Shown here one piece after another: positions 1,563 through 28,919 of a DNA stretch of 29,382 bases. The notes below the pieces were generated by a model. It made no database searches, was not told the origin of the DNA, and saw nothing but the letters and a program-made list of their open reading frames with translations. A program made the position numbers and the translations under genes. The DNA comes from a virus. Where the stretch lies: the IMG/VR virus record IMGVR_UViG_3300050120_000436, positions 1 through 29,382 of that record; one strand, written 5' to 3'. How positions within the stretch are numbered: position 1 is the first letter of the stretch; the number at the start of each line of letters is the position of its first letter.

Positions 1563-1584
1563 AAAAACTAAATGTATAAATACA
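1563..1584 (+). repeat. Left-end transposase-type site L1
   Basis: This is an inverted copy of the 22-bp repeats at the right end, with core AAAAACTAAATGTATAAATA. It differs from the right-end unit at one internal base and the last two. Mu transposases bind about 22-bp sites a few bases inside each end, so this is probably the outermost left site. The exact terminal base is not resolved: there is no clear TG at the expected place. Confidence 0.6.
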
Positions 1585-1663
1585 TAAAAGCAGCCCCCAC
1601 AGCAAAAACTGCATTTTGAGATATAAACAAGCCCTGTTTTTAATAAAAACAAAAGATGGCTAA

Positions 1664-1685
1664 AAACACGAAATGTATAATTGAC
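1664..1685 (+). repeat. Left-end transposase-type site L2
   Basis: This is a second left copy in the same orientation as L1 and about 101 bp inside it. It shares the 12-base core CGAAATGTATAA exactly with the right-end units, but its inner third is degenerate. The spacing (L1 and L2 far apart, R1 and R2 adjacent) resembles phage Mu ends. Confidence 0.5.
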
Positions 1686-1722
1686 TCGATTGCTTGGAGG
1701 AGAGATAACGCTTAAGAGGCGT

Positions 1723-2526
1723 TTATTTGTGCTTTAAAAGCTTTTCTATTATTGCCAGCCGTCCTTCGGCGTCGTCAAGGCGGCTATATAAATTATTGGC
1801 ATCAGAGAGGTCTCTTGATATTTTGCAAACACCCGCCCAGCTCTCAATAATATCTGCGGGATCTATAACCATGTCAGGGTATTCGCCCCCATTGCTATCT
1901 GATTTGAGTATCAGCACTCCGTCCTTTTTAATCCGGTTTAAAACCCGTTTAATTACAATCCCATCATTTCTTGTAATTAATATGTGCACATAAGCGTCCT
2001 TAACATCAGCTAATTCGCACCATTTACCTATTATTTTATCCCGGTTTTTTAACGTAGGCATCATCGAATGGCCGTTTACTTCAAACATTCTGAAGGTGCC
2101 ATTTTCAAAACCCGGAATCTGGTAGGCAGGCAGTGTCTCCATATACTCCGGCTGGTTATATCCATTTAAATAACCGGTTGCTGCCTTTGCAGATACTAAA
2201 ACTATATTATCAATTCCGTCCTGGTTTACTGTTACAATTTTTGGAGAGGTTAATGCGGAAAAATTCTCATTAGGTGCAGCATTGGGTGCAAAAATGGGTG
2301 CATTTTTTTTTCCGGGATCATTACCGGGCAGGTCGCCGAATAGGATATCATCGGCGGATACATCAAGAAACTTGACAATTTTATCCAGCAAATCATAATT
2401 GGGAGTGCTCACACCATTGGTGTAATTGCTTATGGTATTAACTTTTACATTAATCACTTCAGCAATCTCTTTAGGTGTGATGTTCCTCTTGGTTAATATC
2501 CAGCGTAAATTCTCTCCAAATGGCAT
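1723..2526 (-). CDS. LexA/CI-type repressor (XRE HTH plus S24 domain)
   Basis: This is the probable lysogeny repressor. Residues about 5-60 form an XRE-type helix-turn-helix (motif around PKEIAEVINVKVNTISNYTN). Residues about 108-235 form an S24/LexA-like domain with the catalytic pair Ser154 (in GHSMMPT) and Lys193 (in GIVIKRV). A short coiled segment follows to residue 267. The expected autocleavage region is KAATGYLNGY (residues 114-123), where the bond before Gly118 follows Thr rather than the usual Ala. The gene is the only leftward gene of the left module and diverges from a Cro-like gene. Two copies of a 13-bp dyad lie in the gap and a third lies inside the gene at 2363-2375. By analogy with LexA-type repressors, RecA-stimulated cleavage would induce the element. 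The fold is clear; the SOS response is inferred. Confidence 0.9.
   Translation of the reverse strand: MPFGENLRWILTKRNITPKEIAEVINVKVNTISNYTNGVSTPNYDLLDKIVKFLDVSADDILFGDLPGNDPGKKNAPIFAPNAAPNENFSALTSPKIVTVNQDGIDNIVLVSAKAATGYLNGYNQPEYMETLPAYQIPGFENGTFRMFEVNGHSMMPTLKNRDKIIGKWCELADVKDAYVHILITRNDGIVIKRVLNRIKKDGVLILKSDSNGGEYPDMVIDPADIIESWAGVCKISRDLSDANNLYSRLDDAEGRLAIIEKLLKHK
2363..2375. promoter_or_regulatory. Third operator-like 13-mer inside the repressor gene
   Basis: TCAAGAAACTTGA is identical to the right half-site of the intergenic operator pair and lies within the repressor coding sequence, encoding part of the KFLDV segment. An exact 13-base match 190 bp away is unlikely by chance. It could be an auxiliary operator for looping or autoregulation. 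Confidence 0.4.
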
Positions 2527-2539
2527 AAATAAATAATTT

Positions 2540-2570
2540 TCAAGTTTCTTGATAATGTCAAGAAACTTGA
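2540..2570. promoter_or_regulatory. Paired operators and divergent early promoters
   Basis: TCAAGTTTCTTGA (2540-2552) and TCAAGAAACTTGA (2558-2570) are perfect inverted copies separated by 5 bp. Each is itself a TCAAG-N3-CTTGA dyad, as expected for dimers of an HTH repressor. They fill the gap between the repressor and the Cro-like gene. A rightward Bacteroidota-type promoter may overlap them: TTG at 2549-2551, then TTACTTTG at 2572-2579, close to the TAnnTTTG consensus at about 20 bp spacing. The pair lies about 980 bp from the left end, similar to the Mu operator, which also acts as a transposition enhancer; that role here is inference. Confidence 0.65.
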
Positions 2571-2621
2571 TTTACTTTGTTCTGTTGTTCGCAACAAAGG
2601 AACGGAAAACTTTTAAATAAA

Positions 2622-2828
2622 ATGAAAAACAAAAAAAGGGACGATACCGCAACAATCACAGCATCAGCACTTAACGTCACATCTTCGTATGTTAGAATGG
2701 TTATAAAGGGTACCAGGAAAAGCCAAAGCCCCAAGGCATCAAGAATCTTGAAACACTATAAAAACATTTTGGAAGCCAAACACCAACTTTCAAATCCCGG
2801 CAAATCAGGCAATAAAAATGCCAATTAA
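2622..2828 (+). CDS. Small Cro/Ner-like HTH regulator
   Basis: This 68-residue basic protein is the first gene rightward from the operators, the position held by ner in Mu and cro in lambdoid phages. Residues about 8-33 (TATITASALNVTSSYVRMVIKG) read as a helix-turn-helix, followed by a basic helix (ASRILKHYKNIL) and a polar tail. I prefer the ATG at 2622 because it begins the basic N-terminus and leaves room for a leader. The frame is also open from an ATG at 2577, but that start would lie inside the promoter. Its likely job is to bind the same operator region and tune the repressor and early transcription. This rests on position and HTH shape, not on strong sequence identity. Confidence 0.65.
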   Translation: MKNKKRDDTATITASALNVTSSYVRMVIKGTRKSQSPKASRILKHYKNILEAKHQLSNPGKSGNKNAN

Positions 2829-2846
2829 CCCACAATAACAATTTAT

Positions 2847-2996
2847 ATGAAAAACGTATTAAATTATTTAAAAAATCTACCCTCAAAGGCTATCAACAGC
2901 AATCTAAACGCCGTAGAGTTTATCCTATTATCGGTGGTCCTTTTAATAGCCATCACCATATCCATTTACCTGGTTAACCCTCAATTATTAGCTTAA
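2847..2996 (+). CDS. Small single-pass membrane protein
   Basis: This 49-codon ORF begins 18 bp after the Cro-like gene. The product starts MKNVLNYLKNLPSKAINSN and then has a hydrophobic stretch of about 20 residues (VEFILLSVVLLIAITISIYLV), ending shortly after. It is predicted to be one transmembrane helix with a basic N-terminal side. I do not recognise a family. It is co-directional with the early genes and lies just before the transposase gene. Confidence 0.5.
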   Translation: MKNVLNYLKNLPSKAINSNLNAVEFILLSVVLLIAITISIYLVNPQLLA

Positions 2997-3081
2997 ACCT
3001 AAACTAACTCCAATTGAGGGATAGAAGTCTGTCTCCTCTGCTGGTAAGCCGAATAACTGAAGCTGGATTTATTCCATTAAA

Positions 3082-5104: not shown

Positions 5105-5968
5105 ATGACAAAGGAAACTAAAACTAAAATTAAAGAATTGCTCCAGAAATTCTGTGAGGGCTTTGAAAGCCAGGCAAAGGCAGCCAAGGCTTTAAAAGAC
5201 GTTTCTGCCGGGACCATATCCCAGCTTTTAAATGATAAATGGGATCTGATAGCTGACCGCATGTGGATAAGCATAGGTAAGCAGGTTGGGTTTGAGACCG
5301 GGGACTGGAAAATAGTTGAAACTTATAATTACAAATTGATCCGTGGTATACTGATGGATGCCAAGGTGCGAAGCCGTGTGCATGCTATTACCGGTGGTGC
5401 CGGCTGGGGGAAGGACGCCGCTGCAAAAGATTTTAAAACAGAGATAGATGATGTGTACCTGATTAACTGTAATGAGTATTTCAATAAAAAATACTTTATA
5501 GCAGAACTGCTCAAAAAGATGGGTAAAAATACCGACGGTACTGTAGCCGAAATGGTTGAACGCGCAGTGTCAAGTCTTAATAAAACATTCAGGCCATTGA
5601 TCATACTAAATGAGGTGGATAAGCTAAAGGACGAAACCCTGCACTTTTTTATCACCCTGTATAACCTGTGCGAGGATAAATGCGGCATCGTTATCATGGC
5701 CACCGATCAACTGGAGAAACGCATCAGCAGGGGCCTTTTCTTAAACCGTAAAGGATACCAGGAAATATTTTCAAGGGTTGGAAGGCGCTTTATAGAACTT
5801 AAGAAGCCATCCAAAACGGATGTTGCTGCTATCTGCACCATCAATGGGGTTACAGACCCCGAGGCTATCATGGGTATCTACAACAGCTGTGAGGGCGATC
5901 TGAGGAGGGCGAAAAAGCTGATTCAGAATGCTGACAAGGATGAGAATAAGGAATACCGGGCAGCATGA
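5105..5968 (+). CDS. MuB-like AAA+ ATPase (target-DNA activator)
   Basis: This 287-residue protein matches MuB in architecture, length and place directly after the transposase. Residues about 20-45 (QAKAAKALKDVSAGTISQLL) form an HTH, as in MuB. The ATPase domain has a Walker A at 97-105 (GGAGWGKDA, Lys103) and a Walker B at about 164-173 (PLIILNEVDK). A sensor-like segment IVIMATDQ lies at 195-202, and a small helical lid follows to about residue 275. In Mu the ATP-bound protein coats target DNA, stimulates MuA and gives target immunity. The gene overlaps the next ORF by 4 bases (ATGA). Confidence 0.9.
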   Translation: MTKETKTKIKELLQKFCEGFESQAKAAKALKDVSAGTISQLLNDKWDLIADRMWISIGKQVGFETGDWKIVETYNYKLIRGILMDAKVRSRVHAITGGAGWGKDAAAKDFKTEIDDVYLINCNEYFNKKYFIAELLKKMGKNTDGTVAEMVERAVSSLNKTFRPLIILNEVDKLKDETLHFFITLYNLCEDKCGIVIMATDQLEKRISRGLFLNRKGYQEIFSRVGRRFIELKKPSKTDVAAICTINGVTDPEAIMGIYNSCEGDLRRAKKLIQNADKDENKEYRAA

Positions 5969-6079: not shown

Positions 6080-6499
6080 ATGAATACAATATCCAAAAAG
6101 AGCCATCCGGACATCATCAAACTGCAAATTTTAAATAATGAGCAAATGGTGCAGTCTGTGCTGAACTGGGATGAAGAAAAGTACTGCTATTTCAAGTACG
6201 AAGCAGGCATAGACTACGCTAAGCTAATAACCGGTAATGATAGTATAGGCTTTAATATGATCATTAAAACAAGGTTTTTTTGGCAATGGTGGAAAAACGA
6301 ATGGGCAAAACGGGATGCCGGTTTTTTACAGTACTACTCAGGTACGGCAAACAAGGCCATACTGAATGATCAGTATTTATTTCAACACAATTTACAGTAC
6401 TTGATAAGTGATGAGTTGATGAGCCGCAAGGCATGCTCAATGATAGGCTATTGTATTGATGAGTTTCACAAAAACAAAAGGAAGGAGCCTGTTAAGTGA
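6080..6499 (+). CDS. Hypothetical early protein
   Basis: I do not recognise this 139-residue soluble protein. It is rich in aromatic residues (RFFWQWWKNEWAKRD near the middle, residues about 65-79) and ends in a basic tail. It starts 10 bp after the small membrane peptide and is followed by a 120-bp gap containing the 13-bp dyad GGGTATAATACCC (6544-6556). Its place after the MuB-like gene is where Mu encodes its accessory early genes, but I see no specific similarity to Gam or other Mu accessory proteins. Confidence 0.6.
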   Translation: MNTISKKSHPDIIKLQILNNEQMVQSVLNWDEEKYCYFKYEAGIDYAKLITGNDSIGFNMIIKTRFFWQWWKNEWAKRDAGFLQYYSGTANKAILNDQYLFQHNLQYLISDELMSRKACSMIGYCIDEFHKNKRKEPVK

Positions 6500-6619: not shown

Positions 6620-6787
6620 ATGTGCTTTAAAGAACCCCAAACACAACTCCAGGCAGAGATCAGTCTGCTTGAGGAGCGGCTACGAACACTGCCAGACAAC
6701 CAGGTAACCGAACGAATAGAAATACGCAAAAAGCTAATTAAAAAATATATAGAAAACGGACAAGCAATTAACAATCTAAAAACATGA
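6620..6787 (+). CDS. Small coiled-coil-like hypothetical protein
   Basis: This 55-codon ORF encodes a charged helical peptide starting MCFKEPQTQLQAEISLLEER with a continuous heptad-like pattern through most of its length. Its TGA overlaps the ATG of the DUF3164-like gene (ATGA at 6784-6787), which supports real translation and coupling. No family is recognised. Confidence 0.5.
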   Translation: MCFKEPQTQLQAEISLLEERLRTLPDNQVTERIEIRKKLIKKYIENGQAINNLKT

Positions 6788-7422
6788 TAGCAGCACAAAT
6801 CAAACAACAAAAACCAGCTGATCAGTTGTGGCTGGATGAAACAGGTATGCGTATCCCTTATAACAGGGTTAAGCCTTACGAACGCTTAAATGAGCGAAAA
6901 CTGGCAGTATTGGCAAAGTCGGCCATTGACTTGAATACCCGTTTAACGGCATTTAAAGCCACACTGAAAGAAACGGCCGAAGAGCTTTACCACGCGTTTT
7001 TAGAAGGCAATAATGGCAAAGCCCCGGGCAAAGGTAAGGGCGGTATTACACTTTTTAATTTTAACCGGTCTATAAAAGTTGAGGTCGATATAAATGACAA
7101 TATAGTGTTGGACGAGGCATTTATAAACCTTGCCAAGGCTGAGTTTGATGATGTTTTGAATGATGCCATCAGCGATGCAAAAGAATGGTTTAAACCAATT
7201 CTAATGGATGCCTTTGAAACATCAGGCGGGCGCCTGGATTACAAAAAAGTATTGAATCTAAAGCGTTATAAAGACAGGATAACCGACCCGCGCTTCCATA
7301 AAGCAATGGACTTTATTGATAAGGCCATCCGAAAACCGTCCAGCACGGAGTATTTCAGGGTTTGGGTACGCAATGAAGCCGGAAAATATGTGGATGTACA
7401 ATTGAATTTTTCAAAAATCTGA
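6784..7422 (+). CDS. DUF3164-family protein
   Basis: This 212-residue protein resembles DUF3164, a family widespread in early regions of Mu-like phages with no proven function. Visible features are an N-terminal segment around LWLDETGMRIPYNRVKPYER, a helical region (residues about 35-75), a Gly/Lys-rich turn (KAPGKGKGG, about 79-87) followed by beta strands (ITLFNFNRSIKVEVD), and a helical C-terminal half. The match is by recalled family pattern; I could not align it. Confidence 0.7.
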   Translation: MIAAQIKQQKPADQLWLDETGMRIPYNRVKPYERLNERKLAVLAKSAIDLNTRLTAFKATLKETAEELYHAFLEGNNGKAPGKGKGGITLFNFNRSIKVEVDINDNIVLDEAFINLAKAEFDDVLNDAISDAKEWFKPILMDAFETSGGRLDYKKVLNLKRYKDRITDPRFHKAMDFIDKAIRKPSSTEYFRVWVRNEAGKYVDVQLNFSKI

Positions 7423-8132: not shown

Positions 8133-8528
8133 ATGAAAAGTAGTCCGGGCAACTTTAAAAAAATGATGAAACTGCTTACAGACCTCAATTTGCAGGGGCG
8201 CAGGCATCATTTTGCTTACCGGCAATCGGGAGGGCGAACCGAGAGCACCAGGGAACTGCATGATGACGAGATATTAGCCATTATACGTGAGCTGGAAGTA
8301 AGCTTCGGGGCGTATGACCCGGGTGATAAGATGCGCAAAAAAATAATCAGCAAGGCGCATCAAATGCACTGGCAAATCAACGGCAAAGCGGATATGGCGC
8401 GTATCGATAACTGGTGTGTGGCATACGGCCCTTATAAAAAGCCATTGAATGCTCATAATATAAAAGAGCTTGGCATCCTGATCAGCGTATTCGACAAAGT
8501 GTACAGGCATTATATGAACAAAATTTAA
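8133..8528 (+). CDS. GemA-like (DUF1018-type) regulatory protein
   Basis: This 131-residue basic protein resembles the GemA/gp16 group of Mu-like phages. The central part (MRKKIISKAHQMHWQING, about residues 67-84) matches the family pattern of a Lys-rich helix before a short Trp-containing loop. The later IDNWCVAYGPYKKPLNAHNIKELGILIS (about 91-118) matches its ID-W-x-G-x-K-x-L and terminal helix. The N-terminus is a separate basic region. In Mu, gemA precedes mor in the middle region, and here the next gene is also a small HTH protein. Family assignment is by pattern only. Confidence 0.55.
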   Translation: MKSSPGNFKKMMKLLTDLNLQGRRHHFAYRQSGGRTESTRELHDDEILAIIRELEVSFGAYDPGDKMRKKIISKAHQMHWQINGKADMARIDNWCVAYGPYKKPLNAHNIKELGILISVFDKVYRHYMNKI

Positions 8529-8538: not shown

Positions 8539-8763
8539 ATGCGCAATAACATCCTTATCAATCGCAGAAACAGGCTCATTTATGAGGCTTATGCCGAGCT
8601 ATGGGGAAAAGGGCAAAGGGAAGAACTGATATGGCCCCAGCTAACTATTCAGTTTCACCTGGAGGAGAAAACACTTTACCGGATTGTGCTTAAGCAAAGC
8701 AAGATTGTATCGGAAAGACAACCGCAATTGCCATTTACAGAAAAAAATGATGCAGCTAAATAA
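8539..8763 (+). CDS. Mor-like small HTH protein (candidate late-gene activator)
   Basis: This 74-residue protein starts 10 bp after the GemA-like gene. It has a helical N-terminus (NRRNRLIYEAYAELWG) and an HTH-like stretch IWPQLTIQFHLEEKTLYRIV (residues about 31-50), the shape seen in Mor/C activators and in short Bacteroidota phage HTH proteins. Place and fold suggest it switches on the late operons. That is inference; it is shorter than Mu Mor (about 129 residues). Confidence 0.45.
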   Translation: MRNNILINRRNRLIYEAYAELWGKGQREELIWPQLTIQFHLEEKTLYRIVLKQSKIVSERQPQLPFTEKNDAAK

Positions 8764-9419: not shown

Positions 9420-9992
9420 CTAAGTTAAAAAGCCATCAATATAACCGTGTGCTGCAGGCCTTGTTGTTGTATCAACCCTGGTAACGGTAACATCAGGATC
9501 AACCAACACAAATTGACGTTCCTCATCTGTTGTGGCGTCAATAATAATGGTGCCATAATCAACTGTGCCGGTAATAACCATATTCGCGCTGCCGTCATTA
9601 TTATCGCTTACCCGTGTAAGCGCTGTCATATTTGGCAGGCTAAAGCCCTGTAAAGCAATATTTACCTGTTCGGTGAAATCAAAAAAACGCGTGGCCGGTC
9701 CAAGATCAACTGCCCCATCAAAGGTATCGGCATATTTTTCAAAATAGATGTAAAAGCGGATGTTGCCATTTCCGCGCTGCTGGTTTTTGCCAACGTTTTG
9801 CCATTCAAATTGCCGGTACTCCATCAGGATACAAGGCAGTGGAATAGCGTAAGCAAGTTCCGGGTTGGTAAACTGGTCCATTTGTTTATCAAACCATGCC
9901 AGGTCTGGCAGGTCTAATTCCGTAGGGAAGCTTTTTAGGGTCGCCATCAGGTATGTACCTATCTGGGTAAAAAGGTCTTTTTTAATATTCAT
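9420..9992 (-). CDS. Tail-terminator-like (tail completion) protein
   Basis: This 190-residue soluble protein resembles tail terminator/tail completion proteins. It has an N-terminal helix (LFTQIGTYLMATLK), then a strand with IPLPCILMEYRQFEW (residues about 49-63). A polar strand follows (GNIRFYIYFEKYAD), then the FFDFTEQVNIALQGF helix (about 103-117), and strands TALTRVSDN and MVITGTVDYG. Such proteins cap the tube and sheath and normally join the tail to the head. It is encoded leftward, last in a four-gene block, unlike the rest of the tail genes. With no head genes present, its role would be to finish and cap the tail. The family call is by fold pattern, so moderate. Confidence 0.6.
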   Translation of the reverse strand: MNIKKDLFTQIGTYLMATLKSFPTELDLPDLAWFDKQMDQFTNPELAYAIPLPCILMEYRQFEWQNVGKNQQRGNGNIRFYIYFEKYADTFDGAVDLGPATRFFDFTEQVNIALQGFSLPNMTALTRVSDNNDGSANMVITGTVDYGTIIIDATTDEERQFVLVDPDVTVTRVDTTTRPAAHGYIDGFLT

Positions 9993-10159
9993 GTTTTTTA
10001 ATTGTTGAGTTACTGAATCATTGAATTTCTTATTGCGGATTGCAGAAGTTCAATTTTCAATTCGCTTAATCCGGCATCCGGTACTCCTATTTCTTAATCT
10101 ATGTGAAAATTATCACGCTCTTAAGTTAGTTGACTTATTTATCATTTTTACCTGTTGGC

Positions 10160-11470
10160 CTATTTTGGTCCTATGGCCATTTCACTATCATGTACCACAC
10201 CCAACAGAATCTCGGTGAGCTTCTTTTTTATATCACTGGCACTAATGCCCTGCACATTGGTGGTATGAAACTCCAGCTTCTCAACTAGTTTATTAATGGT
10301 AATATGCACATTACGCACAGCCCCTCCTCCGGCCAGAGCGGTTGAATTGCGGCCAGCTGCTTTGCCGGCCTTACCGGCTGGTATTGTTTGCGGGCCTGTT
10401 TTGCCCCCGCCAGTATGTGCAAGAGCAGGTACAGCACCGGTATTTTTATTATCGGCCTCTTTCTTTTTCCTTTCATCCTCTGCTTTTTTGCTCTCAGCTT
10501 TAGATTTATCAAATCCCTCGTTAAAAAGTCCGGATATACCCCCTTTAGCAACGATATTTTGCACGCCATTGTATGCATCTTTAAAGCCATCAATAACCAT
10601 TGAGGGGTTTAAAGTCAATGCTCCTAAGATAATTTCGCCGAGGCCTTTAAATATCGGCACAATCGCCCCCGCCACTTCACCAACACCAGCGAGCACAGCC
10701 CTAAAGTTTTCTGATTTTTCATAAGCAAGATATAAACCGCCAACGAGCAGGGCAATTCCGGCTACTATCAATCCAATCGGATTGGCATCCATTGCCACGT
10801 TTAACGCCCATTGAGCTGCCGTTAAAACCTCCTGGCCTGCAGCTAAAGTTTCCTGAACAGTTGTTAAAATTCCCTGGGCAGTTGACAGCCCTTCGGTAAC
10901 GGCCTGCACTGCGGAAAGTGCTGGTGTTGCCGCTTTAAGCCCATCGTTGATCAATCCATCAAGGCCAGTACCCAACTTATCAAATGCGCCATGTAAATCA
11001 CCAACAGGGCCTATTGCACTATGTACAACCTTTGTTGATTTTCCAAACTCCGTTTGCAGTTGCTGTAAAACAGACGCATGGGCTTTTTGAGCCTGGCTAT
11101 GCTTTGTAACAGTGGTAATCAACCCCTTTTGTGATGTATTAAGCCCATCGCCGGCGGTATGCAGCGCAGCAAAACCTTTAGCAGGATTCTGCAGGGCGCT
11201 ACTAACTAATGCAAACGCCCCTTTAAGATTGGCGGGCCCATTGCCGCTCATCATTGTTGCCATGTGCTCAATAGCTCCGCTAACGCTTTTAACATTGAAA
11301 CCGCCGTTTATTATGGCCCCAGCCTTAACAACAACATTTCCTAAGCCATTAACTACCTGTTGCGTATGTGCCACCGCGGCATCAAGCCCCTGCATTGCGG
11401 ATTTAACTTTGGACGCACCTCCAAAATCACCATCCTTAATATTGACAATATAATCTAAACCCTTACCCAT
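10160..11470 (-). CDS. Short tape-measure protein
   Basis: This 436-residue, Ala/Gly-rich helical protein carries the hallmark tape-measure segment AMDANPIGLIVAGIALLVGG at 226-245, continuing LYLAYEKSENFR. A second hydrophobic region follows (GEVAGAIVPIFKGLGEIILGAL, about 264-285), then a charged linker (about 312-345), a Gly/Ala-rich stretch and a C-terminal HITINKLVEKLEF motif seen at the ends of many tape-measure proteins. It sets tube length and is threaded in the tube lumen. At roughly 0.15 nm per residue it would give a tube near 65 nm, short for a contractile tail. It is oddly placed, on the strand opposite to the sheath, tube and chaperone genes, whereas it normally follows the chaperones directly. 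Confidence 0.75.
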   Translation of the reverse strand: MGKGLDYIVNIKDGDFGGASKVKSAMQGLDAAVAHTQQVVNGLGNVVVKAGAIINGGFNVKSVSGAIEHMATMMSGNGPANLKGAFALVSSALQNPAKGFAALHTAGDGLNTSQKGLITTVTKHSQAQKAHASVLQQLQTEFGKSTKVVHSAIGPVGDLHGAFDKLGTGLDGLINDGLKAATPALSAVQAVTEGLSTAQGILTTVQETLAAGQEVLTAAQWALNVAMDANPIGLIVAGIALLVGGLYLAYEKSENFRAVLAGVGEVAGAIVPIFKGLGEIILGALTLNPSMVIDGFKDAYNGVQNIVAKGGISGLFNEGFDKSKAESKKAEDERKKKEADNKNTGAVPALAHTGGGKTGPQTIPAGKAGKAAGRNSTALAGGGAVRNVHITINKLVEKLEFHTTNVQGISASDIKKKLTEILLGVVHDSEMAIGPK

Positions 11471-11473
11471 GTT

Positions 11474-11629
11474 TTATTTCTCCTCATTTAAAATTTCATT
11501 AACCTTCGTGTAAATTAATTTGTAGTTCCTTTGTATATATCTGCACTGGCATGCCTCTTCCGTGTCAGGAATACGCGCCCCACCTCTTGGTGAAGTTTTT
11601 ATACCAGTGATCTTTGTTAAAAAATTCAT
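11474..11629 (-). CDS. Small hypothetical protein upstream of the tape measure
   Basis: This 51-codon ORF ends 3 bp before the tape-measure start and begins 1 bp after the stop of the upstream gene, so the three are packed as one leftward operon. The product (MNFLTKITGIKTSPRGGARI, then EEACQCRYIQRNYKLIYTKV and an acidic end) is basic with a CQC pair and has no membrane segment. No family is recognised; a tail-assembly helper is possible by position. Confidence 0.5.
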   Translation of the reverse strand: MNFLTKITGIKTSPRGGARIPDTEEACQCRYIQRNYKLIYTKVNEILNEEK

Positions 11630-11630
11630 T

Positions 11631-13963: not shown

Positions 13964-13968
13964 AAATT

Positions 13969-20408: not shown

Positions 20409-20487
20409 GTAGGATAATGTTATAATACGCTCATTGCCGCATTTAGCTTTTACAACCAAGCATAAGTTAAAAAACAGCCGGAGTGTA

Positions 20488-20770
20488 TTGATAAATACAG
20501 TAATGATCATTCAATAACGATTTTATAAAAACAATGGCAAACATAAAAATTAACGATTTACCCGCTGCAACCGCGGTACAGGATAGTGATGAGATCATCG
20601 TATCGCAGGGCACAGGTGCTACTGATGTAAAAAAGGCCTCACTCGCTGTTGTTAAAACATGGGTAAATGCCGGAGGAACCGGCTCGTCTGGTGTAACTGC
20701 GAATAACGGACTAACCGAAACTAGCGGCAACATACAGGTAGGGGGTGCTTTAGTACAGGACACAACAGTT
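20488..20770 (+). repeat. Near-identical 5' segment of fibre gene 2 (direct repeat copy 1)
   Basis: This stretch, from TTGATAAATACAG through the anchor-coding part of fibre gene 2, recurs at about 22179-22462 with only scattered differences and one extra A before the start codon. It includes the 10-bp palindrome AATGATCATT upstream of each ATG. The duplication covers the leader and the anchor but stops where the variable part begins. Confidence 0.85.
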
Positions 20771-22153
20771 GACGCTGGTTCAAATATGTTAACGTTGATG
20801 GGTGAAAATGCTGGTTCTTCATGGACTATCCAGTCCTATGTAAGGGATATTAGAGACGAGTCTTCCAGCCGTATTTTTTTAATGGTGCAAAATGCAACCA
20901 CCGGAGCTCAATCAAGTATTTCTGTTTTTGATGGTGATTTTCAACTTTCTACTACTAATTCATCTGGGCTGGACTTTAGTATAACATCAGATGGCTCTAT
21001 TGCAGATAATATTAATAATACTGGTTTATTCTATGGTGCTGATTATTCAGCAGCGGGTACTTTAAATGATAGATGGATACCTGATTACGGAACAGTAAAA
21101 AGTAGTCAAATATATAAAGGAGCCTGGCTAAGTGGGGTAGCACTTAATCATAATGATATTGTATCGGGATATACCGGTCAGTTTTTAGTCCGGTCTGCCG
21201 TTTCAGCAGCAAACAATACGATCGACCCAAGTAACGCGGTTCACTATAATTTTGGTGGCTATAATTACGATCAGTCAGCCGCGGCCGCTACTGCCGCTAC
21301 TAATGTTGCTGCAATAAACTCATTCAGCCCAATGGGAGATCTGTTGTTTGTTCAGGAGACTGATGTCCCTGTAGCTACAGGGAGTGTGATGCCTTTATTT
21401 AGCATGCCTTATCCGGTATTTCATGAAACGCAGGTTAAATTTATTCTTTATACAGATAGTAATACTTCGGGCTACATGGCCGAGTATGAGTTCTTAGGAA
21501 ACCCGGATTTAGGCACATGGACAGAATTATTGCCGATGAAAACTACTTCTGCCACTTTTACTTATCAAACCGGGACATACAGCCTTCATGTAGACGCCAT
21601 AAGTTCGGGCAGTATTTATGAGTTCAGGGTAAGAGCGGTTCATGTGTCTGGTGGTTTTAACACCGAAATACCCGTTATCACAGAATTTAGAAAAAGCTGG
21701 TGTAAAGCATTTTTTCAGGAATTCCCAACAATTAGTAATTATTGGACAAGCTTAGCGGCTGACCCATCAACTGATCCCAATACCAATCTTCCGTTATGGA
21801 GAGGTACCGATACAAATGTAATCCCGGTACTTACCGGGCCTACTATCCAGATGGGACAGTTAAACACCCCCATTGTAGCCAATTCCGCCACTCAAACATC
21901 TGTAGCAGGTTCAACATCAGGCACGGCGACATTTAGCCAGCCTGAGCAGGGTAGCAGTTATAAAAAGGTAATTGTTTATTGCAATGCGTTGTCAGGTACG
22001 GCTTCATATACGTTTCCGGCAGCCTTTACCAATACTCCGGCAATAACAACTACCAATGGGCCCGCGGCAAGCGTAGTAACAGGTTTATCCACTACAGGTA
22101 TTACAATAACCGGGGCGCCCACTACTGGTTACATCGAAATAATCGGGTATTAA
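20534..22153 (+). CDS. Tail fibre protein 2 (paralogue)
   Basis: This 539-residue protein starts with the anchor [20 protein letters not shown], the [13 protein letters not shown] motif (residues about 59-71) and the [20 protein letters not shown] module, after which it diverges fully from its neighbours. The middle has a fibronectin-like or beta-sandwich look (STNT-rich, with [20 protein letters not shown] near residue 370). The C-terminus ([20 protein letters not shown] and [14 protein letters not shown]) is a compact tip domain seen in many phage fibres. Leader and anchor are nearly identical in DNA to fibre 3. Probably an alternative or additional receptor-binding fibre. Confidence 0.7.
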
Positions 22154-22178
22154 ATGTAAGGTAAAAAACAGGTGAGCA

Positions 22179-22462
22179 TTGATAAATACAGTAATGATCA
22201 TTCAATAACGATTTCATAAAAAACAATGGCAAACATAAAAATTAACGATTTACCCGCTGCAACCGCGGTACAGGATAGCGATGAGATCATCGTATCGCAG
22301 GGCACAGGTGCTGCTGACGTAAAAAAGGCCTCACTTGCTGTTGTTAAAACCTGGGTAAATGCCGGGGGAACCGGCCCGTCTGGTGTAACTGCTAATAATG
22401 GATTAACTGAAACCACCGGCAATATACAGTTGGGAGGACCCTTAGTACAGGACACCACTGTT
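22179..22462 (+). repeat. Near-identical 5' segment of fibre gene 3 (direct repeat copy 2)
   Basis: This is the second copy of the 20488-20770 repeat, offset by about 1691 bp. The leader TTGATAAATACAGTAATGAT is identical in both. Recombination between the copies would delete one variable fibre region and leave an intact gene. Confidence 0.85.
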
Positions 22463-24109
22463 GATGCCACCGGATTTAACCTTACTCTCAATCAAAATAT
22501 AAATTATGATGGAGGGAATGTAGCAAATCAATCTTTTATACTTGATCCGGGTGGAAGTATTAGTATAAATACAGCTGGAGTAGCTATCCCTACGGGGACA
22601 GGTACAACGGATAGGCCGACTTCGTTATTTAATAATACAGGCGGCTCATTGCAACTAATAGTTGGCACAAACGATCTTAGTAGTTCCACCGCTTCATTAA
22701 ATTTCAATACCTACGAAAATCAAGTTCCCTCTACAGACTTTCTAAGCCTGCAACCTACTTTCGATCTATGTTTATCAAATGGTTCAAGCTATCAGGGGAT
22801 AGGTAGTAATGGTGGGGTTTTGGCAACAGGGCTTGGTTTGGGTAATATATCGGGAATAGTTGTTAAAGATGATATTAATAGTAAAGGCTTTTTTTATGGA
22901 GCAGATTATTCAGCAAACGGTGCATCGGATCCCCGATGGATCCCTGATTATGCCGCAGTACAAGCATATGTAAATAGTGTTGGAGCAGGAAACCTGACAT
23001 TTAATGGCGGCTTAACCAATACGTCGGGAGTTGTGGGTTTAGGAGGTGCTCTATCTGCAGATGCAACGATCGCACTTCAATCCGGTACACTTTTTTTTGC
23101 TTATAATAGCTCACCTGGTGTTTCTGTTGGCACAAAGTTTTTTCCAAATGGAAATGTTGGTCTTGGTGCATCCGGGGCGCAGGCTGATAACGGGTTTACG
23201 GTAAATATCTACAACACTGATGGGTCTGGTTATTTTTCTGCCGGAAACTTTGTAGTTGGAGCAGATGGGGCTGCATATATAAATGGGGCGCCTGATCCAG
23301 CTGATAATTCATCGCTTGTTCCAAGTACAGCCTGGGTTAATCAATTTGTAAATACTGCCGTAGTTTCATCAGCATTAGCCTTCAGTAGCGGTTTAACCAA
23401 TACTTCAGGTAGTGTGAATTTAGGAGGTTCATTAACCAGGACTACAACTATTGATGCAGCCGGCCATGTATTTAATGTGTCGGATACCGTTAATGGCAGT
23501 ATCTCGTTTTGGTTAAACGCTGCAAGTAAAGATATACAGTTGTATTATACTGATACTACAAACAATGCATCAGGGGGCCTTAATGCAAATTATCAAACCG
23601 GCACACAACTAGTTTTTACCCAACCAAGCACTAATCATAGTCAAATTATTGCCCTAAGTGGTGCAAGTATGACTGTTTTTGATAATGTTAACGCTAAAGG
23701 GTTAGTATATAATGCCGACTATTCAGCCAATTATACCTCCCGTTCTATACCGGACGTGGCCTGGGTGCAATCACAAATAGCTTCTGTCACACCGGGCACA
23801 CCGGGTGGATCAACAACCCAGCTGCAATATAACAATGCAGGTGCATTTGCAGGATCATCGAATCTTACATTCAATGGCAGTATGTTAAATGTAAACAACG
23901 CTGCTTTGTATGTTGGTAACTCAACTATTGCCGCATCTGCCCTCTTACAGGTTGATAGCACATCAAAAGGGTTTTTACCTCCACGTATGACTACTGCACA
24001 AAAAAATGCCATTGCATCGCCGGCTGAAGGGTTAACGCTATACGATTCAACATTACACAAACTATGTATTTATACCGGCTCTGCCTGGGAAACAGTAACA
24101 TCAGCTTAA
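22226..24109 (+). CDS. Tail fibre protein 3 (paralogue, repeat-rich)
   Basis: This 627-residue protein has the anchor [20 protein letters not shown] and three copies of a GLTxTxGxVxLGGxL unit (about 59, 262 and 389). It also carries two KGxxYxADYSAN modules (about 220 and 493). The C-terminal tip domain holds GGSTTQLQYNNAGAFAGSSN and SKGFLPPRMTTAQKNAIASP, common at the ends of Bacteroidota fibres. The pattern suggests growth by internal duplication. It ends 22 bp before the next gene. Likely another receptor-binding fibre; which of the three is used in the particle cannot be told from sequence. Confidence 0.72.
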   Translation: MANIKINDLPAATAVQDSDEIIVSQGTGAADVKKASLAVVKTWVNAGGTGPSGVTANNGLTETTGNIQLGGPLVQDTTVDATGFNLTLNQNINYDGGNVANQSFILDPGGSISINTAGVAIPTGTGTTDRPTSLFNNTGGSLQLIVGTNDLSSSTASLNFNTYENQVPSTDFLSLQPTFDLCLSNGSSYQGIGSNGGVLATGLGLGNISGIVVKDDINSKGFFYGADYSANGASDPRWIPDYAAVQAYVNSVGAGNLTFNGGLTNTSGVVGLGGALSADATIALQSGTLFFAYNSSPGVSVGTKFFPNGNVGLGASGAQADNGFTVNIYNTDGSGYFSAGNFVVGADGAAYINGAPDPADNSSLVPSTAWVNQFVNTAVVSSALAFSSGLTNTSGSVNLGGSLTRTTTIDAAGHVFNVSDTVNGSISFWLNAASKDIQLYYTDTTNNASGGLNANYQTGTQLVFTQPSTNHSQIIALSGASMTVFDNVNAKGLVYNADYSANYTSRSIPDVAWVQSQIASVTPGTPGGSTTQLQYNNAGAFAGSSNLTFNGSMLNVNNAALYVGNSTIAASALLQVDSTSKGFLPPRMTTAQKNAIASPAEGLTLYDSTLHKLCIYTGSAWETVTSA

Positions 24110-24131: not shown

Positions 24132-24413
24132 ATGAGCACAACTTTTAATTTTAATAAACCGGTTATCGGGCTTGACGGCCACCCATTGGTTGATGTAAAC
24201 GGGCCTATAACAATGGGCGGCGTTTTAGCGCCGGTTATTGCCTCACAATCAAAAGGCGATGCTTTAAAATTGTTTGGCTGGGCTTCGGCCATATATAAAA
24301 AAGAAGATCTGATTTTAGACAAATCAGATCAAAATACCCTTAAAGACTTTATTAATGCAAGCGAGCAAATGACGGTTTTGGTTAAGGCTCAATTATTAGA
24401 AGTGTTAAATTAA
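24132..24413 (+). CDS. Hypothetical protein between the fibres and the hub
   Basis: I do not recognise this 93-residue protein. It begins MSTTFNFNKPVIGLDGHPLV, contains NGPITMGGVLAPVIASQSKG (about 23-42), then two helices (DALKLFGWASAIYKKEDL and NTLKDFINASEQMTVLVKAQ). Its TAA overlaps the hub ATG (TAATG), which implies coupled translation. A role as a tail chaperone or small baseplate protein is inferred from position only. Confidence 0.5.
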   Translation: MSTTFNFNKPVIGLDGHPLVDVNGPITMGGVLAPVIASQSKGDALKLFGWASAIYKKEDLILDKSDQNTLKDFINASEQMTVLVKAQLLEVLN

Positions 24414-25414
24414 TGTATACGCTAACCTCAAATATTACCATTTTAGACCCTGCCGGTAACCTTATAGTAGAGAAATTACCTGTAATTGAATGTAAAATAA
24501 AAAAGAGCCGGTTAAGTTTAACAGATACTGCTACCATCACTTTGCCGCGAAATATCAAATTATCTAAGGACGCCAAGCTGGTAAATATTAATGACATCAT
24601 TAAGCGGGATTCAAAGGTAACCATACAGCTTGGTTACGATGGCAACCTGGTTACCAGGTTTACAGGCTTCGTAAGTAAGGTAAGCGCCGAGATACCGTTT
24701 ACTATTAATTGCCAGGACACGATGTTTCCCTTAAAGCAAAACAATTTTACCCATACATGGGAAAAGGGGGTTACTATCCGTGATATTGTAACATACATAT
24801 ATCCCGGGCCAATCTTTGTAGCCGATCTGGCCATTGGCGGTTATGTCGCTAAAAATCAAAGTACCGCTCAAATATTAGACGACCTGAAGAAATTCGGGCT
24901 GCAGTGCTATTTTGCACTTGATGCTAAAGGAGTTAATACACTGTATGTGGATTTTCCCGGCGTTTTGCACGACAACAGCAAACAGGTGAACTATGATTTC
25001 TCTAAAAACATCATCGACAACAAACTTGAATATAAGTTAGCAACGGATTTTAAAATACAGATAAAAGGAACCTCAACCAATGACAAAGGGGAAGTAATAA
25101 CAATAAATGCACCGGACGATGTAACCGATACTGGTGATACCGGTGAGGTACTATCACTCGATTATTACAATATGGATAAAGACCACCTGCAAAAAATTGT
25201 TACCTCGGAAATAAATGCGCTTAGTTACGATGGCCTTAGAGGAAGCTTTACAACATGGGGGTTGCCGGTGATTGAGCCAGGTGACACTGCTGTGTTAAAG
25301 GATCCAAAATACCCAGAGGAACATAAGGGCTCCTATTTAACGGAATCGGTGGAGATCACTTTTGGTGTAAATGGTTACAGGCAGGAGCCTGAAATGGAAA
25401 GGAAACTGGCATGA
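24413..25414 (+). CDS. Baseplate hub protein (gp27/gpD-like)
   Basis: This 333-residue protein has the make-up of the central hub (late-control gpD/gp44 type): an N-terminal strand pair (SNITILDPAGNLIVEKLPVI), KVTIQLGYDGNLVTRFTGFV (about 68-87), and the typical NQSTAQILDDLKKFGLQCYF helix (about 147-166). It ends with PVIEPGDTAVLKDPKYPEEH and TESVEITFGVNGYRQEPEME. The hub trimer joins the tube to the spike, whose gene follows in an ATGA overlap. The order hub, spike, gp25-like, J, I is that of Mu and P2, so the assignment is strong even without alignment. Confidence 0.8.
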   Translation: MYTLTSNITILDPAGNLIVEKLPVIECKIKKSRLSLTDTATITLPRNIKLSKDAKLVNINDIIKRDSKVTIQLGYDGNLVTRFTGFVSKVSAEIPFTINCQDTMFPLKQNNFTHTWEKGVTIRDIVTYIYPGPIFVADLAIGGYVAKNQSTAQILDDLKKFGLQCYFALDAKGVNTLYVDFPGVLHDNSKQVNYDFSKNIIDNKLEYKLATDFKIQIKGTSTNDKGEVITINAPDDVTDTGDTGEVLSLDYYNMDKDHLQKIVTSEINALSYDGLRGSFTTWGLPVIEPGDTAVLKDPKYPEEHKGSYLTESVEITFGVNGYRQEPEMERKLA

Positions 25415-26010
25415 GCGACGCATTAAAAAAAGCTTTAAGAAAAATTGTTAAGCCAGGTGGTTTTGATGAGCCGGTAGTTAGGGCCGTAGTATTATCGGTG
25501 GATAAGACGGGGATTACCTGCTCGGTGAAAACGGTAGCTGATAACCTGCAAATAAATGGTGTTAAATTAAAACCGGTGATCAATAACAACGACACTACTA
25601 AAATGGGTTTGGTCGTTTTTCCTGCCGTAGGCTCATTTGTGCTCGTAGGCCAGGTAGCAGATAATAACATTGATGTTTTTGTGGTCAGCTGTACTCAAAT
25701 TGAAAGCATTTCACTGGATAACGGCCCTCATTTAACGCTGCAAATTGGCGCTGATGGAAAGATTAATTTAAATTCCGATTTAATAACGTTTAATGGTGGG
25801 CATTTGGGTGGTATACCGAAATTAATACCGCTTACGGATGCCGTCAATAATCTGCAAGCGCAGATTAATACACTACTGGATGCTTTTAACAGTCACACCC
25901 ATACTGTATCAAGTGGTCTTACGGGGCTGCCGTTACCGCCACTCATACCGCTATCACATGGTGTTAATATTAATAGCTCAGATATCGAAAATAAATCTAT
26001 AGTACAATGA
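25411..26010 (+). CDS. Baseplate spike protein (gp45/gpV-like)
   Basis: This 199-residue protein forms the tail's central spike. Residues about 20-100 make an OB-fold-like domain (VVRAVVLSVDKTGITCSVKT, GLVVFPAVGSFVLVGQV). A beta-helix-like part follows (GPHLTLQIGADGKINLNS, about 105-122), then a helical stretch and the tip motif SHTHTVSSG with His162 and His164. In P2 gpV and related spikes, an HxH pair from three chains binds an iron ion at the tip; I infer the same. The start overlaps the hub stop (ATGA), and the end overlaps the gp25-like gene (ATGA). Confidence 0.82.
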   Translation: MSDALKKALRKIVKPGGFDEPVVRAVVLSVDKTGITCSVKTVADNLQINGVKLKPVINNNDTTKMGLVVFPAVGSFVLVGQVADNNIDVFVVSCTQIESISLDNGPHLTLQIGADGKINLNSDLITFNGGHLGGIPKLIPLTDAVNNLQAQINTLLDAFNSHTHTVSSGLTGLPLPPLIPLSHGVNINSSDIENKSIVQ

Positions 26011-26303
26011 ATGATATAATATTAGATGATAACATGGACCTGGCCATTGTAAATGGCGACTTTGTGGTGGACGATGCCGAGCAGCAGGTACAGGAACTCA
26101 TCCTGATCGCTACCCAAGGCAGTTTCCGCGAAAGCCCCATAACGGGGATTGGTATAGTAAGATACCTAAAAAGCGGTTTTACGCTTGATAAGCTCGATGA
26201 GCTAAGGCAGCAAATAATACTGCAGTTGCAGTATGACGGGTACACTACCGTTAATACACAAATTAACTCATTTACGGATATTGAAATTGACGCGACACGA
26301 TAA
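26007..26303 (+). CDS. gp25-like baseplate wedge protein (gpW type)
   Basis: This 98-residue protein matches the gp25/gpW group. The N-terminal DIILDDNMDLAIVNGDFVVD, the helix AEQQVQELILIATQGSFRES (about 24-43), the conserved ITGIGIVRYL and the C-terminal YDGYTTVNTQ are all in the usual order and spacing. It belongs to the wedge that triggers sheath contraction. A gap with a 27-base tandem repeat follows. Confidence 0.8.
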   Translation: MNDIILDDNMDLAIVNGDFVVDDAEQQVQELILIATQGSFRESPITGIGIVRYLKSGFTLDKLDELRQQIILQLQYDGYTTVNTQINSFTDIEIDATR

Positions 26304-26403: not shown

Positions 26404-26407
26404 AACT

Positions 26408-27274
26408 ATGGCACAAACAGCAGACGAAATACAAAGCGAGATGATGACCGAAATGGTCAATTATCCTGCGCTTACACCTTTAAACGATACTTCAGGTACA
26501 AACGGTAGTAATATCCCTATTTGGAAATCATGGATGTTTGTAACCGCAACCATCATTTCATTTTTTGAGCAGGTGATGGACCTTTTTAAAGTCGATATTC
26601 AAAACATTATCAATAATAACCAATATGGAAGTGACGAGTGGTGGTACAATCAAATGCTGGCCTTCCAGTTTGGTGATCTGCTGGTATTTATTAATAATAT
26701 ATTCCAATACCCATTAATTGACGCCTCCAGGCAGGTAATAAAGTTTTGCTCAATTAACAGCAGTCCCGACGGCGTTGTGCAGATAAAAGTTGCACAACAA
26801 GACGGCAATAATCAGCCCGCTGTTTTAACACCCGACCAGTTAAATGGTGTGTATTCCTATTGCAAGGCCATCAGGCCTGCCGGTATCAGGTTTACCGTTC
26901 TATCGGCGCCTGCAGATCTGTTGCAGCTTAACGGTAATATCTATTATGATGCAGCAGGAGATAAAGCAGTAATACAGATTGCTGTAGAGAAAGCGATCAA
27001 CGATTTCCTGGGTACCAACAATGTTAATAATTTTGATGGTACACTCTATGTTAACAAGCTGATTGATGCTATACAGGTAGTTCCGGGTCTTGTTGGCAAC
27101 CAGGTGGATATTACAACCATAGCGGCCAGGAGCACGGTTAGTGATTACACCACCTTTACCAGCAGCTATCCGCCTCTGTCCGGATATATTATGATCGATC
27201 CGGAATTGGCATTAGCCAATACGCTTACCTATTATCCTATACCACCTATACCAACCGAAACACCTGCACCATGA
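26408..27274 (+). CDS. Baseplate J-like protein
   Basis: This 288-residue protein has the position and size of gp47/gpJ. It is divergent: the helical N-terminus (about 1-75) contains IPIWKSWMFVTATIISFFEQ. The middle (SPDGVVQIKVAQQDGNNQPA, about 119-138) and the RPAGIRFTVLSAPADLLQLN motif (about 156-175) match the J family's PAG/xxTV core. The IIxxFxx helix is replaced by VEKAINDFLG, and the end is a Pro/Thr-rich tail. It joins gp25-like and I proteins in the wedge. Its stop overlaps the next start (ATGA). Confidence 0.7.
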   Translation: MAQTADEIQSEMMTEMVNYPALTPLNDTSGTNGSNIPIWKSWMFVTATIISFFEQVMDLFKVDIQNIINNNQYGSDEWWYNQMLAFQFGDLLVFINNIFQYPLIDASRQVIKFCSINSSPDGVVQIKVAQQDGNNQPAVLTPDQLNGVYSYCKAIRPAGIRFTVLSAPADLLQLNGNIYYDAAGDKAVIQIAVEKAINDFLGTNNVNNFDGTLYVNKLIDAIQVVPGLVGNQVDITTIAARSTVSDYTTFTSSYPPLSGYIMIDPELALANTLTYYPIPPIPTETPAP

Positions 27275-27759
27275 AAACTTACAGCTTTGATATAAATAAA
27301 ATGATCAGGTGGCTGATGCCTTATTTTTTGGTCAAACCAACGCACTATGCCTGGCTGCAAACCTTATTGGTGCGCGTAAAAAACCAGTATGCTGATTTTT
27401 TAATTTACAGGGATCAGCAACTGGCAAATGCTACCATCGACTCATCGGTAAACAGGTTGACACAGGCTTTGTGGGATACATATGATAGTACCCAATCTAT
27501 TTATATTTTACATCCGGGTGATTACAGGGATGAAAACTTTATTTATTTGGAAATGGAAGGGGAAACGCCTGGATATGACTATTTAGAAAGCGACGGCCAC
27601 ACCCCTTTTGATTACGACTACCTGGTTGCTGAATATGGTTCGGGTCATGATTTTATAGTTATGATACCAGTGATACTGGCTGGCAGTACAGAATTAATAC
27701 GCGCTTTTGTCAAAAGATATGTTTTTTTCGGTATAAGTTTTACAATAAAAACTTTTTAA
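27271..27759 (+). CDS. Tail protein I-like (gp48/gpI)
   Basis: This 162-residue protein follows J in an ATGA overlap, where Mu gp48 and P2 gpI are found. It has a Trp/Tyr-rich N-terminal helix (IRWLMPYFLVKPTHYAWLQT), a central SVNRLTQALWDTYDST and an acidic middle (GETPGYDYLESDGHTPFDYD). The ending FVMIPVILAGS-like part leads to AFVKRYVFFGISFTIK, which resembles the end of gpI. It probably attaches the fibre to the baseplate. Sequence similarity is weak, so position carries most weight. Confidence 0.6.
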   Translation: MKTYSFDINKMIRWLMPYFLVKPTHYAWLQTLLVRVKNQYADFLIYRDQQLANATIDSSVNRLTQALWDTYDSTQSIYILHPGDYRDENFIYLEMEGETPGYDYLESDGHTPFDYDYLVAEYGSGHDFIVMIPVILAGSTELIRAFVKRYVFFGISFTIKTF

Positions 27760-27871
27760 AATATAGAACCTGCCGCCTGCAAGCGGATGAAAATCATACA
27801 AATAAAAAAAACGGGCGATAGTGAGCTCATGAATACATAAAAAATTAATTAACAAACGAATAATCACTCAT

Positions 27872-28762
27872 ATGAAAATTATTAATACACTATCAGGCGG
27901 TTACCGTAGGGTAATGGACACCTTACTGGGCCTGCAAACTGAAATGGTCACCATGGGAAATGCGCCCTTTGCAGCATTAGGGGTCGACCTGGTATTGTCC
28001 GGTTGCGCTGTAACCGACAATGGAGACGGCACGGTAAATATTGCACCGGGTTTAATGTATGTTGCCGGTAATACCTTGCGGTTTGACGGAGCAGGCAATA
28101 TTGCAAGCGATGGCTCAATGGCCATTACAGCAGGCGCCGTTGTCGCCAGCAACCCGCAACCATTTGCTGACGGATCGACACAAAATATTTATAGCGAGCA
28201 AAAGGCTGTGGTAGCTGCTATGGATACCTCCAACACCCAGCAAATAATAATTAAAACCACGCTATATAGTTTACAACAGTATATTCAGGACCAGGTAAAC
28301 GCAAATGAACCCACAGGGACGATCAAAGAGTTATATGATTTTGATGGAACGTTTAGGTCCAACTTTGATGCGAGCGGATTAGGTAATAAACCCGCCTGGA
28401 TGGGTTGGGCGTTGGATAACGGGAATAATGGCACACCAGGCTCGGCGGGCAGGGTACTGATCGGAGTTGGTGTGAACGGGTCGAATACCTATAGTTATGG
28501 AGATGTAGGGGGCGAGATAAATCATCAGTTAAGTGTTGATGAAATGCCAAGCCACAATCACAGCTATAATATTCGGGTATTTTCCGGCGGTACTTATAGT
28601 GATACAACTGACACCGGGCACTCCACATCAGATAATGCAATGATCACAGGTAACACAGGTGGTGATAACCCTCACAACAATATGCAGCCATATAAAGTGG
28701 TTTACAGGGTAGTAAAGGTTGGGGTACACGTAACTACCGGTGGTGGTGGGTCGCTTGCATAA
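27872..28762 (+). CDS. Collar-type tail fibre protein
   Basis: This 296-residue protein ends the operon. The N-terminus (MKIINTLSGGYRRVMDTLLG, 1-20) is a likely baseplate adapter, and the middle is beta-rich with NGDGTVNIAPGLMYVAGNTL (about 50-69). The C-terminal about 120 residues form a phage tail-collar domain with GDVGGEINHQLSVDEMPSHN (about 210-229; His-Asn-His at 228-230) and HNNMQPYKVVYRVVKV at about 268-283. Collar domains sit at fibre tips in many phages. It is separate from the three anchor-sharing fibres and lies in the normal Mu fibre position after I, so it could be the original fibre. Confidence 0.72.
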   Translation: MKIINTLSGGYRRVMDTLLGLQTEMVTMGNAPFAALGVDLVLSGCAVTDNGDGTVNIAPGLMYVAGNTLRFDGAGNIASDGSMAITAGAVVASNPQPFADGSTQNIYSEQKAVVAAMDTSNTQQIIIKTTLYSLQQYIQDQVNANEPTGTIKELYDFDGTFRSNFDASGLGNKPAWMGWALDNGNNGTPGSAGRVLIGVGVNGSNTYSYGDVGGEINHQLSVDEMPSHNHSYNIRVFSGGTYSDTTDTGHSTSDNAMITGNTGGDNPHNNMQPYKVVYRVVKVGVHVTTGGGGSLA

Positions 28763-28812
28763 GGCGTTGTCTATATAAAACACGACTGATTTTTTTATAA
28801 TGCCATAATAAG

Positions 28813-28847
28813 CTAAAAAGCCAACCTCATCGGGGTTGGCTTTTTAG
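28813..28847 (+). terminator. Strong late-operon terminator
   Basis: CTAAAAAGCCAACC and GGTTGGCTTTTTAG form a perfect 14-bp stem around a 7-base loop, with T-runs in both directions, so it can work either way. It lies 50 bp after the last gene and about 70 bp before the right end of the element. Confidence 0.85.
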
Positions 28848-28875
28848 TTTATTATATCCAATTATAACTAACACT

Positions 28876-28919
28876 ATTATTTATACATTTCGTTTTTATT
28901 ATTTATACATTTCGTTTTT
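28876..28919 (+). repeat. Right-end transposase-type sites R2 and R1
   Basis: Two identical 22-bp units (ATTATTTATACATTTCGTTT plus two further Ts) stand directly next to each other (28876-28897 and 28898-28919). Their inverted forms match the left-end sites. Mu also has two adjacent 22-bp sites at its right end. The outer unit ends at 28919; the terminal base is probably a few bases beyond. The following 28920-29007 is AT-rich with TTTGCAAATTTGCA-like host text. Confidence 0.75.

Follow-up and report, generated by a model that had tools for sequence, protein, structure and literature searches.

A headless Mu-type transposable element with a contractile tail, and similar loci in related Sphingobacteriales

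Gene content of the element

The stretch of DNA analysed here, which we call the window, is a single virus record of IMG/VR (IMGVR_UViG_3300050120_000436; 29,382 bases), and it carries a Mu-like transposable element, at about 1554 to 28928, with control, transposition, lysis and contractile tail genes. We consider it quite likely that this is a complete Mu-type transposable prophage that has lost its head and become, recently, a transposition-equipped R-type tailocin. The case is built on gene content, on deletion scars, on the repeated occurrence of the headless state in relatives' genomes and on selection in those relatives, all of which were observed. Gene content was established by open reading frame (ORF) calling with Pfam and PHROGs, and the closest relatives, drawn from IMG/VR and GTDB genomes, were compared gene by gene.

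A first-pass annotation, made from the letters alone, had placed the element at 1563-28919, with matched end sites, intact MuA and MuB genes, a regulated left arm, and lysis and tail genes. These coordinates were essentially right; sequence comparison refined the ends to 1554 and 28928, with a GTATAA site 20 nucleotides (nt) inside each. GTATAA-type repeats at both ends bear out the matched end sites, as the ORFs and their Pfam/PHROGs matches do the gene content. Since both ends and their flanks are there, the window is not a mere truncated contig. Features other than those of the minus-strand block, described below, are listed here (aa, amino acids; strand is omitted for the ends).

1554..1680: left end, with repeated predicted MuA-type sites AAAAACTAAATGTATAA and AAACACGAAATGTATAA and a 20-nt end spacing as in relatives L002 and G003
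1723..2526, minus: S24-type repressor (HTH_3 and a weak Peptidase_S24 match)
2577..2828, plus: small Ner-like gene, assigned by position (no profile match); homologues lie beside the repressor in G003 and L002
3082..5040, plus: MuA transposase, 652 aa (Mu-transpos_C; 56-70% identical to relatives)
5105..5968, plus: MuB ATPase (AAA_22, Phage-MuB_C)
6080..6499, plus: conserved middle gene, 45-71% identical in G003, G005 and G011
6784..7422, plus: DUF3164 protein, typical of Mu-like phages (Pfam/PHROGs)
8133..8528, plus: middle gene conserved in relatives
8539..8763, plus: possible late activator (phrog_532, weak, E-value 0.05), conserved in relatives
12554..13108, plus: endolysin, an N-acetylmuramidase (PF11860)
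13160..13963, plus: membrane or spanin-like lysis protein (position, conservation)
13969..15216, plus: tail sheath (DUF2586, phrog_907)
15220..15648, plus: tail tube (phrog_4579 tail protein)
15813..16411, plus: tail assembly chaperone with an overlapping second frame (15813-16196 and 16151-16411), both frames conserved
16471..17121, plus: baseplate hub (DUF6046)
17118..17510, plus: LysM-like hub gene (position, conservation)
17511..24109, plus: three fibre genes (17511-20408, 20534-22153, 22226-24109) with a common N-terminal anchor (249-nt direct repeat)
24132..24413, plus: small conserved gene, 43% identical in G011
24413..25414, plus: gpD-like baseplate hub (phrog_4930)
25411..26010, plus: spike (position, relatives)
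26007..26303, plus: gp25-like wedge (position, relatives)
26408..27274, plus: baseplate J (PF04865)
27271..27759, plus: baseplate I (position, relatives)
27872..28762, plus: fibre/Gp10_C protein (PF21939)
28875..28928: right end, with two tandem 22-nt predicted MuA-type sites

The MuA gene is intact and the family's first Asp and Glu are conserved; for the second catalytic Asp, no alignment to Mu could be made. Genes for this DDE transposase and for MuB, together with paired ends that appear to carry repeated transposase sites, are those of a Mu-like transposable phage; the head and packaging genes of such a phage are missing from the window. The right-end layout matches that of G003, G002 and L002 and, with other letters, that of the more distant G231 and G158.

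The contractile tail is complete (sheath, tube, tape measure, hub, spike, wedge, J, I and fibre), with a shortened tape measure, and several fibre and baseplate accessory proteins had no profile match and were assigned by position and relatives. The PF11860 endolysin and the spanin- or holin-like genes form a lysis cassette for release, as in tailocins, and the window resembles R-type tailocins in having no capsid, portal or terminase. Among traits of extracellular contractile injection systems (Afp/PVC/MAC type), the only AAA match was MuB and no Pfam toxin domain was found.

The host is probably Mucilaginibacter-like or another related member of Sphingobacteriales, soil-type Bacteroidota. 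At positions 1-1497 lies a host gene, 498 aa long, for which plasmids and family genomes offered almost no relatives; as a flank it gave no useful match, either for identifying the host or for judging whether the window lies at a fixed locus.

Remains of a deleted head block

In four IMG/VR relatives (G003, G005, G011 and G002), the minus strand carries, in order, tail completion, gpG, tape measure, MuF, portal, DUF1320, a small gene that is spanin-like in some, TerL and TerS, and this block is followed by protease, capsid and lysis genes on the plus strand. Pfam identifies the portal (Portal_Mu, E-value 3e-63), MuF and gpG in these relatives. They and locus L029, from a Mucilaginibacter metagenome-assembled genome (MAG), share the gene order of the window, with sheaths 72-76% identical, and differ from it in having the head block and, where covered, a single fibre anchor. 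Head genes were also present, where covered, in L029 and the other shorter relatives L005, L007-L010, L030, L031, L035 and L038.

For eight head and neck families (gpG, MuF, portal, DUF1320, TerL, TerS, protease and capsid), searches with the relatives' proteins, custom hidden Markov models and PHROGs gave no gene in the window. The first-pass claim that no head or packaging gene is present is thereby upheld, and the remote-homology search it had proposed, with portal, terminase and capsid profiles, found none in the window either. Its further claim that the head interval is missing where Mu-like phages have it agrees with the place of the head block in the relatives. What remains of this region is as follows.

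9420..9992, minus: tail completion/terminator gene, kept (phrog_6911; homologue of the Peternella tail completion gene)
9993..10159, minus: site of the deleted neck gene gpG, which in relatives lies between tail completion and tape measure
10160..11470, minus: tape measure, internally shortened (PHROGs tape-measure matches)
11468..11541, minus: scar of the MuF 3' end (71% nt identity to the G003 MuF end, E-value 3e-6)
11542..11630: junction at which MuF, portal and the DUF1320 adaptor were deleted, judged by the gene order of relatives
11631..11990, minus: spanin-like coiled-coil protein, kept within the deleted head block (weak Rz-like spanin match; 80% identical to L010)
12068..12257: scar of the TerS 5' end and divergent promoter region (69% nt identity to G003, E-value 3e-23)
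12301..12372, plus: scar of a capsid piece (weak protein match to G003 capsid residues 293-316, E-value 0.026)

Three minus-strand genes are thus kept (tail completion, tape measure and the spanin-like gene). The tape measure has 436 aa as against 526-574 aa in relatives, with about 80 aa gone, in frame, near residue 64. The first-pass description of the tail genes as unbroken holds for the ORFs, which are intact, with the corrections that the tape measure is shortened and that the neck gene gpG is gone. DNA alignment also places the capsid scar near 12304, with 83% identity over 35 nt to L005, and a weaker TerL scar is present as codons at the 5' side of the spanin-like gene that resemble the TerL 3' end. 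The AlphaFold model of the tail completion protein was of low confidence (predicted local distance difference test score 58) and was not used.

Given the scars and the shortened tape measure, the head was lost by deletion and, on comparison of sequences, the element is a deletion derivative in which several deletions removed the head from an ordinary phage related to the Peternella group. The first-pass annotation had held that, if related elements all had a head module at the same place, its mobile tailocin would be a deletion derivative; for the closest relatives this is what was found, and the window bears the scars. Dating the head loss from the scars was dropped, as they are too short.

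Winogradskyella phage Peternella_1 (Winoviridae, NC_062754) is like the window in its MuA/MuB left arm, DUF3164, DUF2586 sheath, baseplate order and a minus-strand block starting with tail completion. Unlike the window, it has neck, portal, MuF, adaptor, terminase, protease and capsid genes, and its sheath is 31% identical. The tape measure of Peternella_1 is on the plus strand, after the tube; that of the window family is encoded within the minus-strand head block, far from the chaperone.

Some relatives were themselves unusual. L029 showed no MuF or gpG match, a partial tape measure and ends that look degraded, and may also be a decaying copy. L002 (12,752 bases), whose MuA is truncated after about 416 residues, keeps portal, DUF1320 and most of TerL. 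It lacks capsid, tape measure and baseplate but retains both element ends and a CCAT duplication. Genome G080 carries four DUF2586-sheath prophages with head genes (L190-L193), two of them closely alike.

Headless loci in related genomes

The family and genera to which the Mucilaginibacter-like MAG and G231 belong were searched for the sheath, and the surroundings of the matches were fetched; a first scan of genome contigs with a single sheath had returned no match. Besides the window, ten sheath loci of related genomes are headless, and seven of the ten have MuA and MuB. Head genes came as a set or not at all: none of the eight families was found in these 11 loci (window included; 29-65 kb examined in each), and several to all of them were found in the other sheath loci where covered. 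MuA and MuB lie a few kb before the sheath in G231, G158, G401, G484, G409, G251, G411 and the window, and are absent from G339, G467 and G385. In G251 and G231, none of the interval genes was recognised by PHROGs as coding for a head protein. A non-homologous head module was likewise considered for the MuB-to-sheath interval of these two and rejected, none being recognised and 4.5-7 kb being too short. The phrog_6911 tail-completion family is kept in both, as in the window.

A chimeric contig that joins head-bearing genomes and skips the head block can hardly be the explanation for the window, although this is a single virus record for which searches among relatives found no near-identical copy. 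In the window there are a number of distinct junctions, at which scars partly survive, and the tape-measure deletion is in frame. The headless state also occurs on chromosome-size contigs (e.g. G231:C1 and G411:C1).

A tree built on six tail proteins of 40 loci requires six changes of state, each of them forced by well-supported branches, and the bootstrap trees agree. The headless groups are {G231, G158, G401, G484}, {G409, G339, G467}, {G251}, {G385}, {G411} and the window, the last nested among ten headed relatives. By this tree, headless elements arose at least six separate times in related bacteria. The direction of change would be head loss and not regain, because of the scars and because the head block is common to Peternella and the headed loci. 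G411, which lies outside the window family, retains the same minus-strand trio of tail completion, tape measure and spanin-like protein, and its place in the tree makes this retention independent of that in the window.

Several headless lineages have multiplied their fibres. Three fibre anchors occur in the window, of which copies 2 and 3 are 91% alike at the DNA level over 249 nt, as against one in each headed relative of the window family where covered. In the other group there are 3-4 anchors in G231, G158, G401, G409, G339 and G467 and at most one in every headed locus. The anchor is not multiplied in G251, G385 and G411, and G484 stops at a contig edge. Counted by lineage, fibre multiplication was gained in three of the six headless ones, and no headed element examined shows it. 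A weapon aimed at several targets would fit this pattern, the number of independent events being small. Long fibre arrays (about 12-15 kb) lie downstream of gene I in G231 (L181, L210) and G158 (L184, L211), and include several further fibre-like genes without the anchor.

Between G231 and G158, the ratio of non-synonymous to synonymous change (dN/dS) was 0.045 for MuA, 0.044 for MuB, 0.041 for the sheath, 0.030 for the tube and 0.148 for the tape measure, and it ranged over 0.02-0.15 for repressor, MuA, MuB, ATPase and tail genes, with synonymous sites near or beyond one change in most genes. Between G409 and G339, it was 0.04-0.14 for most tail genes. On these ratios, two headless clades of three or four species each persist under strong purifying selection on transposase and tail genes.

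In G339 and G467, the cluster without MuA/MuB sits at a single place in the chromosome common to both, flanked left and right by conserved genes, and by analogy it resembles a fixed tailocin. In G409, with an RpoB 99.6-99.8% identical to that of G339/G467, the cluster lies elsewhere and has MuA/MuB. At the shared site, the sheaths of G339 (L166) and G467 (L217) are 78.5% identical, the tubes 96% and RpoB 99.7%, and the sheath seems to diversify faster than the tube. G231, G158, G401 and G484 have no flanking genes in common, which fits movement, but variable regions could also give this result; in a check for an empty site, the G158 flank gene had no clear orthologue in G231, G401 or G484.

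G401 groups with G231/G158 by element and with G484 by rpoB, and because of this disagreement some horizontal transfer of headless elements between species is likely. Such movement, with a headless clade tree in conflict with rpoB, would also suit a satellite that makes its own tail and borrows head and packaging machinery from a co-resident phage, as would the retention of Mu-type ends and MuA. A satellite is nevertheless highly improbable: nothing is left of the portal, adaptor, neck and terminase genes, a capsid-redirecting gene was not recognised, and G339 and G467 keep the tail without a transposase, which would be needless for a travelling satellite.

A candidate transposable tailocin

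The remaining alternative for the window is a cryptic prophage, in which random deletions took the head genes and the tail is intact only for lack of time. Several observations favour it and weigh against a tailocin. All close relatives in which the stretch is covered have the head block at that place, whole or in part. The window has lost at least four middle genes that its relatives conserve, which fits general decay, and its tape measure is shorter than theirs. Target-site duplications of 4 base pairs are present in L002 (CCAT/CCAT) and G003 (TTAA/TTAA), whereas none is seen in the flanks of the window element (CTAT / TACA). L002 is a plain wreck, so decay occurs in the window family too. 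The closest relatives are ordinary phages, so that the head loss in the window may be too recent for an intact tail to prove selection, and for the window alone a decaying prophage keeps some probability for that reason. The scars are about as conserved as coding DNA. Particle formation, killing and transposition are, for the window element, predictions from sequence.

The separate loss blocks flank kept genes, yet every tail, lysis and transposition gene was spared, and the same end state was reached six times and is maintained elsewhere. When five deletion blocks were placed at random in a simulation, all 18 core genes were spared in 2e-4 of trials and the tail genes alone in 0.008, figures to be read with the caution that the simulation was devised after the pattern had been seen. 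Unlike those of a cryptic prophage, the remaining tail ORFs are intact and their rates mostly even, although the head loss itself is decay-like. The tail proteins evolve at about the pace of those of headed relatives, hub D being a partial exception; shortly after the loss, even rates are expected of a tailocin and of a decaying prophage alike. Baseplate and lysis genes, which incomplete prophages are generally prone to lose (PMC7744054), are both kept in the window. Taken together, we regard a cryptic prophage as unlikely.

Several separate deletions removed neck, head and packaging genes from the window element and left control, transposition, lysis and the contractile tail. If the element is, as we favour, a tailocin able to transpose, then by the ways of known families induction would relieve the repressor and the late genes would be expressed. 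Peternella_1 has a tape measure of 669 aa and a tail of 105.8 nm (PMC8776804); scaled from these values, the 436-aa tape measure of the window would set tails of about 69 nm, within an expected 65-70 nm. The retained terminator would cap the tails, lysis would release them, and contraction would kill relatives bound by one of the several fibres. MuA and MuB may still move the element, only within the genome because it can no longer package itself. The order of events may have been from phage, by head loss, to transposable tailocin and, by transposase loss, to fixed tailocin as in G339/G467.

R-type pyocins of Pseudomonas aeruginosa comprise sheath, tube, baseplate and lysis genes with no head, and occupy a fixed locus without a transposase. 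The window shares their headless state and these four components and differs in its transposase; the pyocins are of P2 origin (PMC12090994). The R-type syringacin of Pseudomonas syringae is, like the window, a Mu-derived contractile tail without a head (PMC12090994), with a set chromosomal place among tryptophan genes (PMC6331570). Unlike it, the window keeps MuA, MuB and the element ends, and the syringacin host belongs to another phylum. The first-pass view that coupling a tailocin to Mu would be unusual thus stands in part: a Mu origin alone is not new, given the precedent in P. syringae (PMC12090994), and in the part of the literature that was searched we found no report of a transposase-bearing tailocin or of tailocins in Sphingobacteriales. 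Its reading of the element as a mobile tailocin gains from the at least six origins and the two clades under purifying selection, and has to be amended in that the closest relatives are headed and the window derives from such a phage.

On balance, it seems likely that transposable tailocins are recurrent mobile elements of Sphingobacteriales, arising by repeated head loss, with MuA/MuB under selection and fibres multiplied, and later maybe fixed by loss of the transposase; the window would be one of at least six such origins. The usual picture of a tailocin is a fixed locus, fully domesticated, and the route from phage to tailocin has mostly been inferred. Here, species that are closely related harbour three states side by side, namely headed phages, headless elements with an intact transposase and fixed clusters without one, so that the steps, order and forces of tailocin origin become testable. 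If MuA still works, the element would be a bacteriocin locus able to copy itself within a genome.

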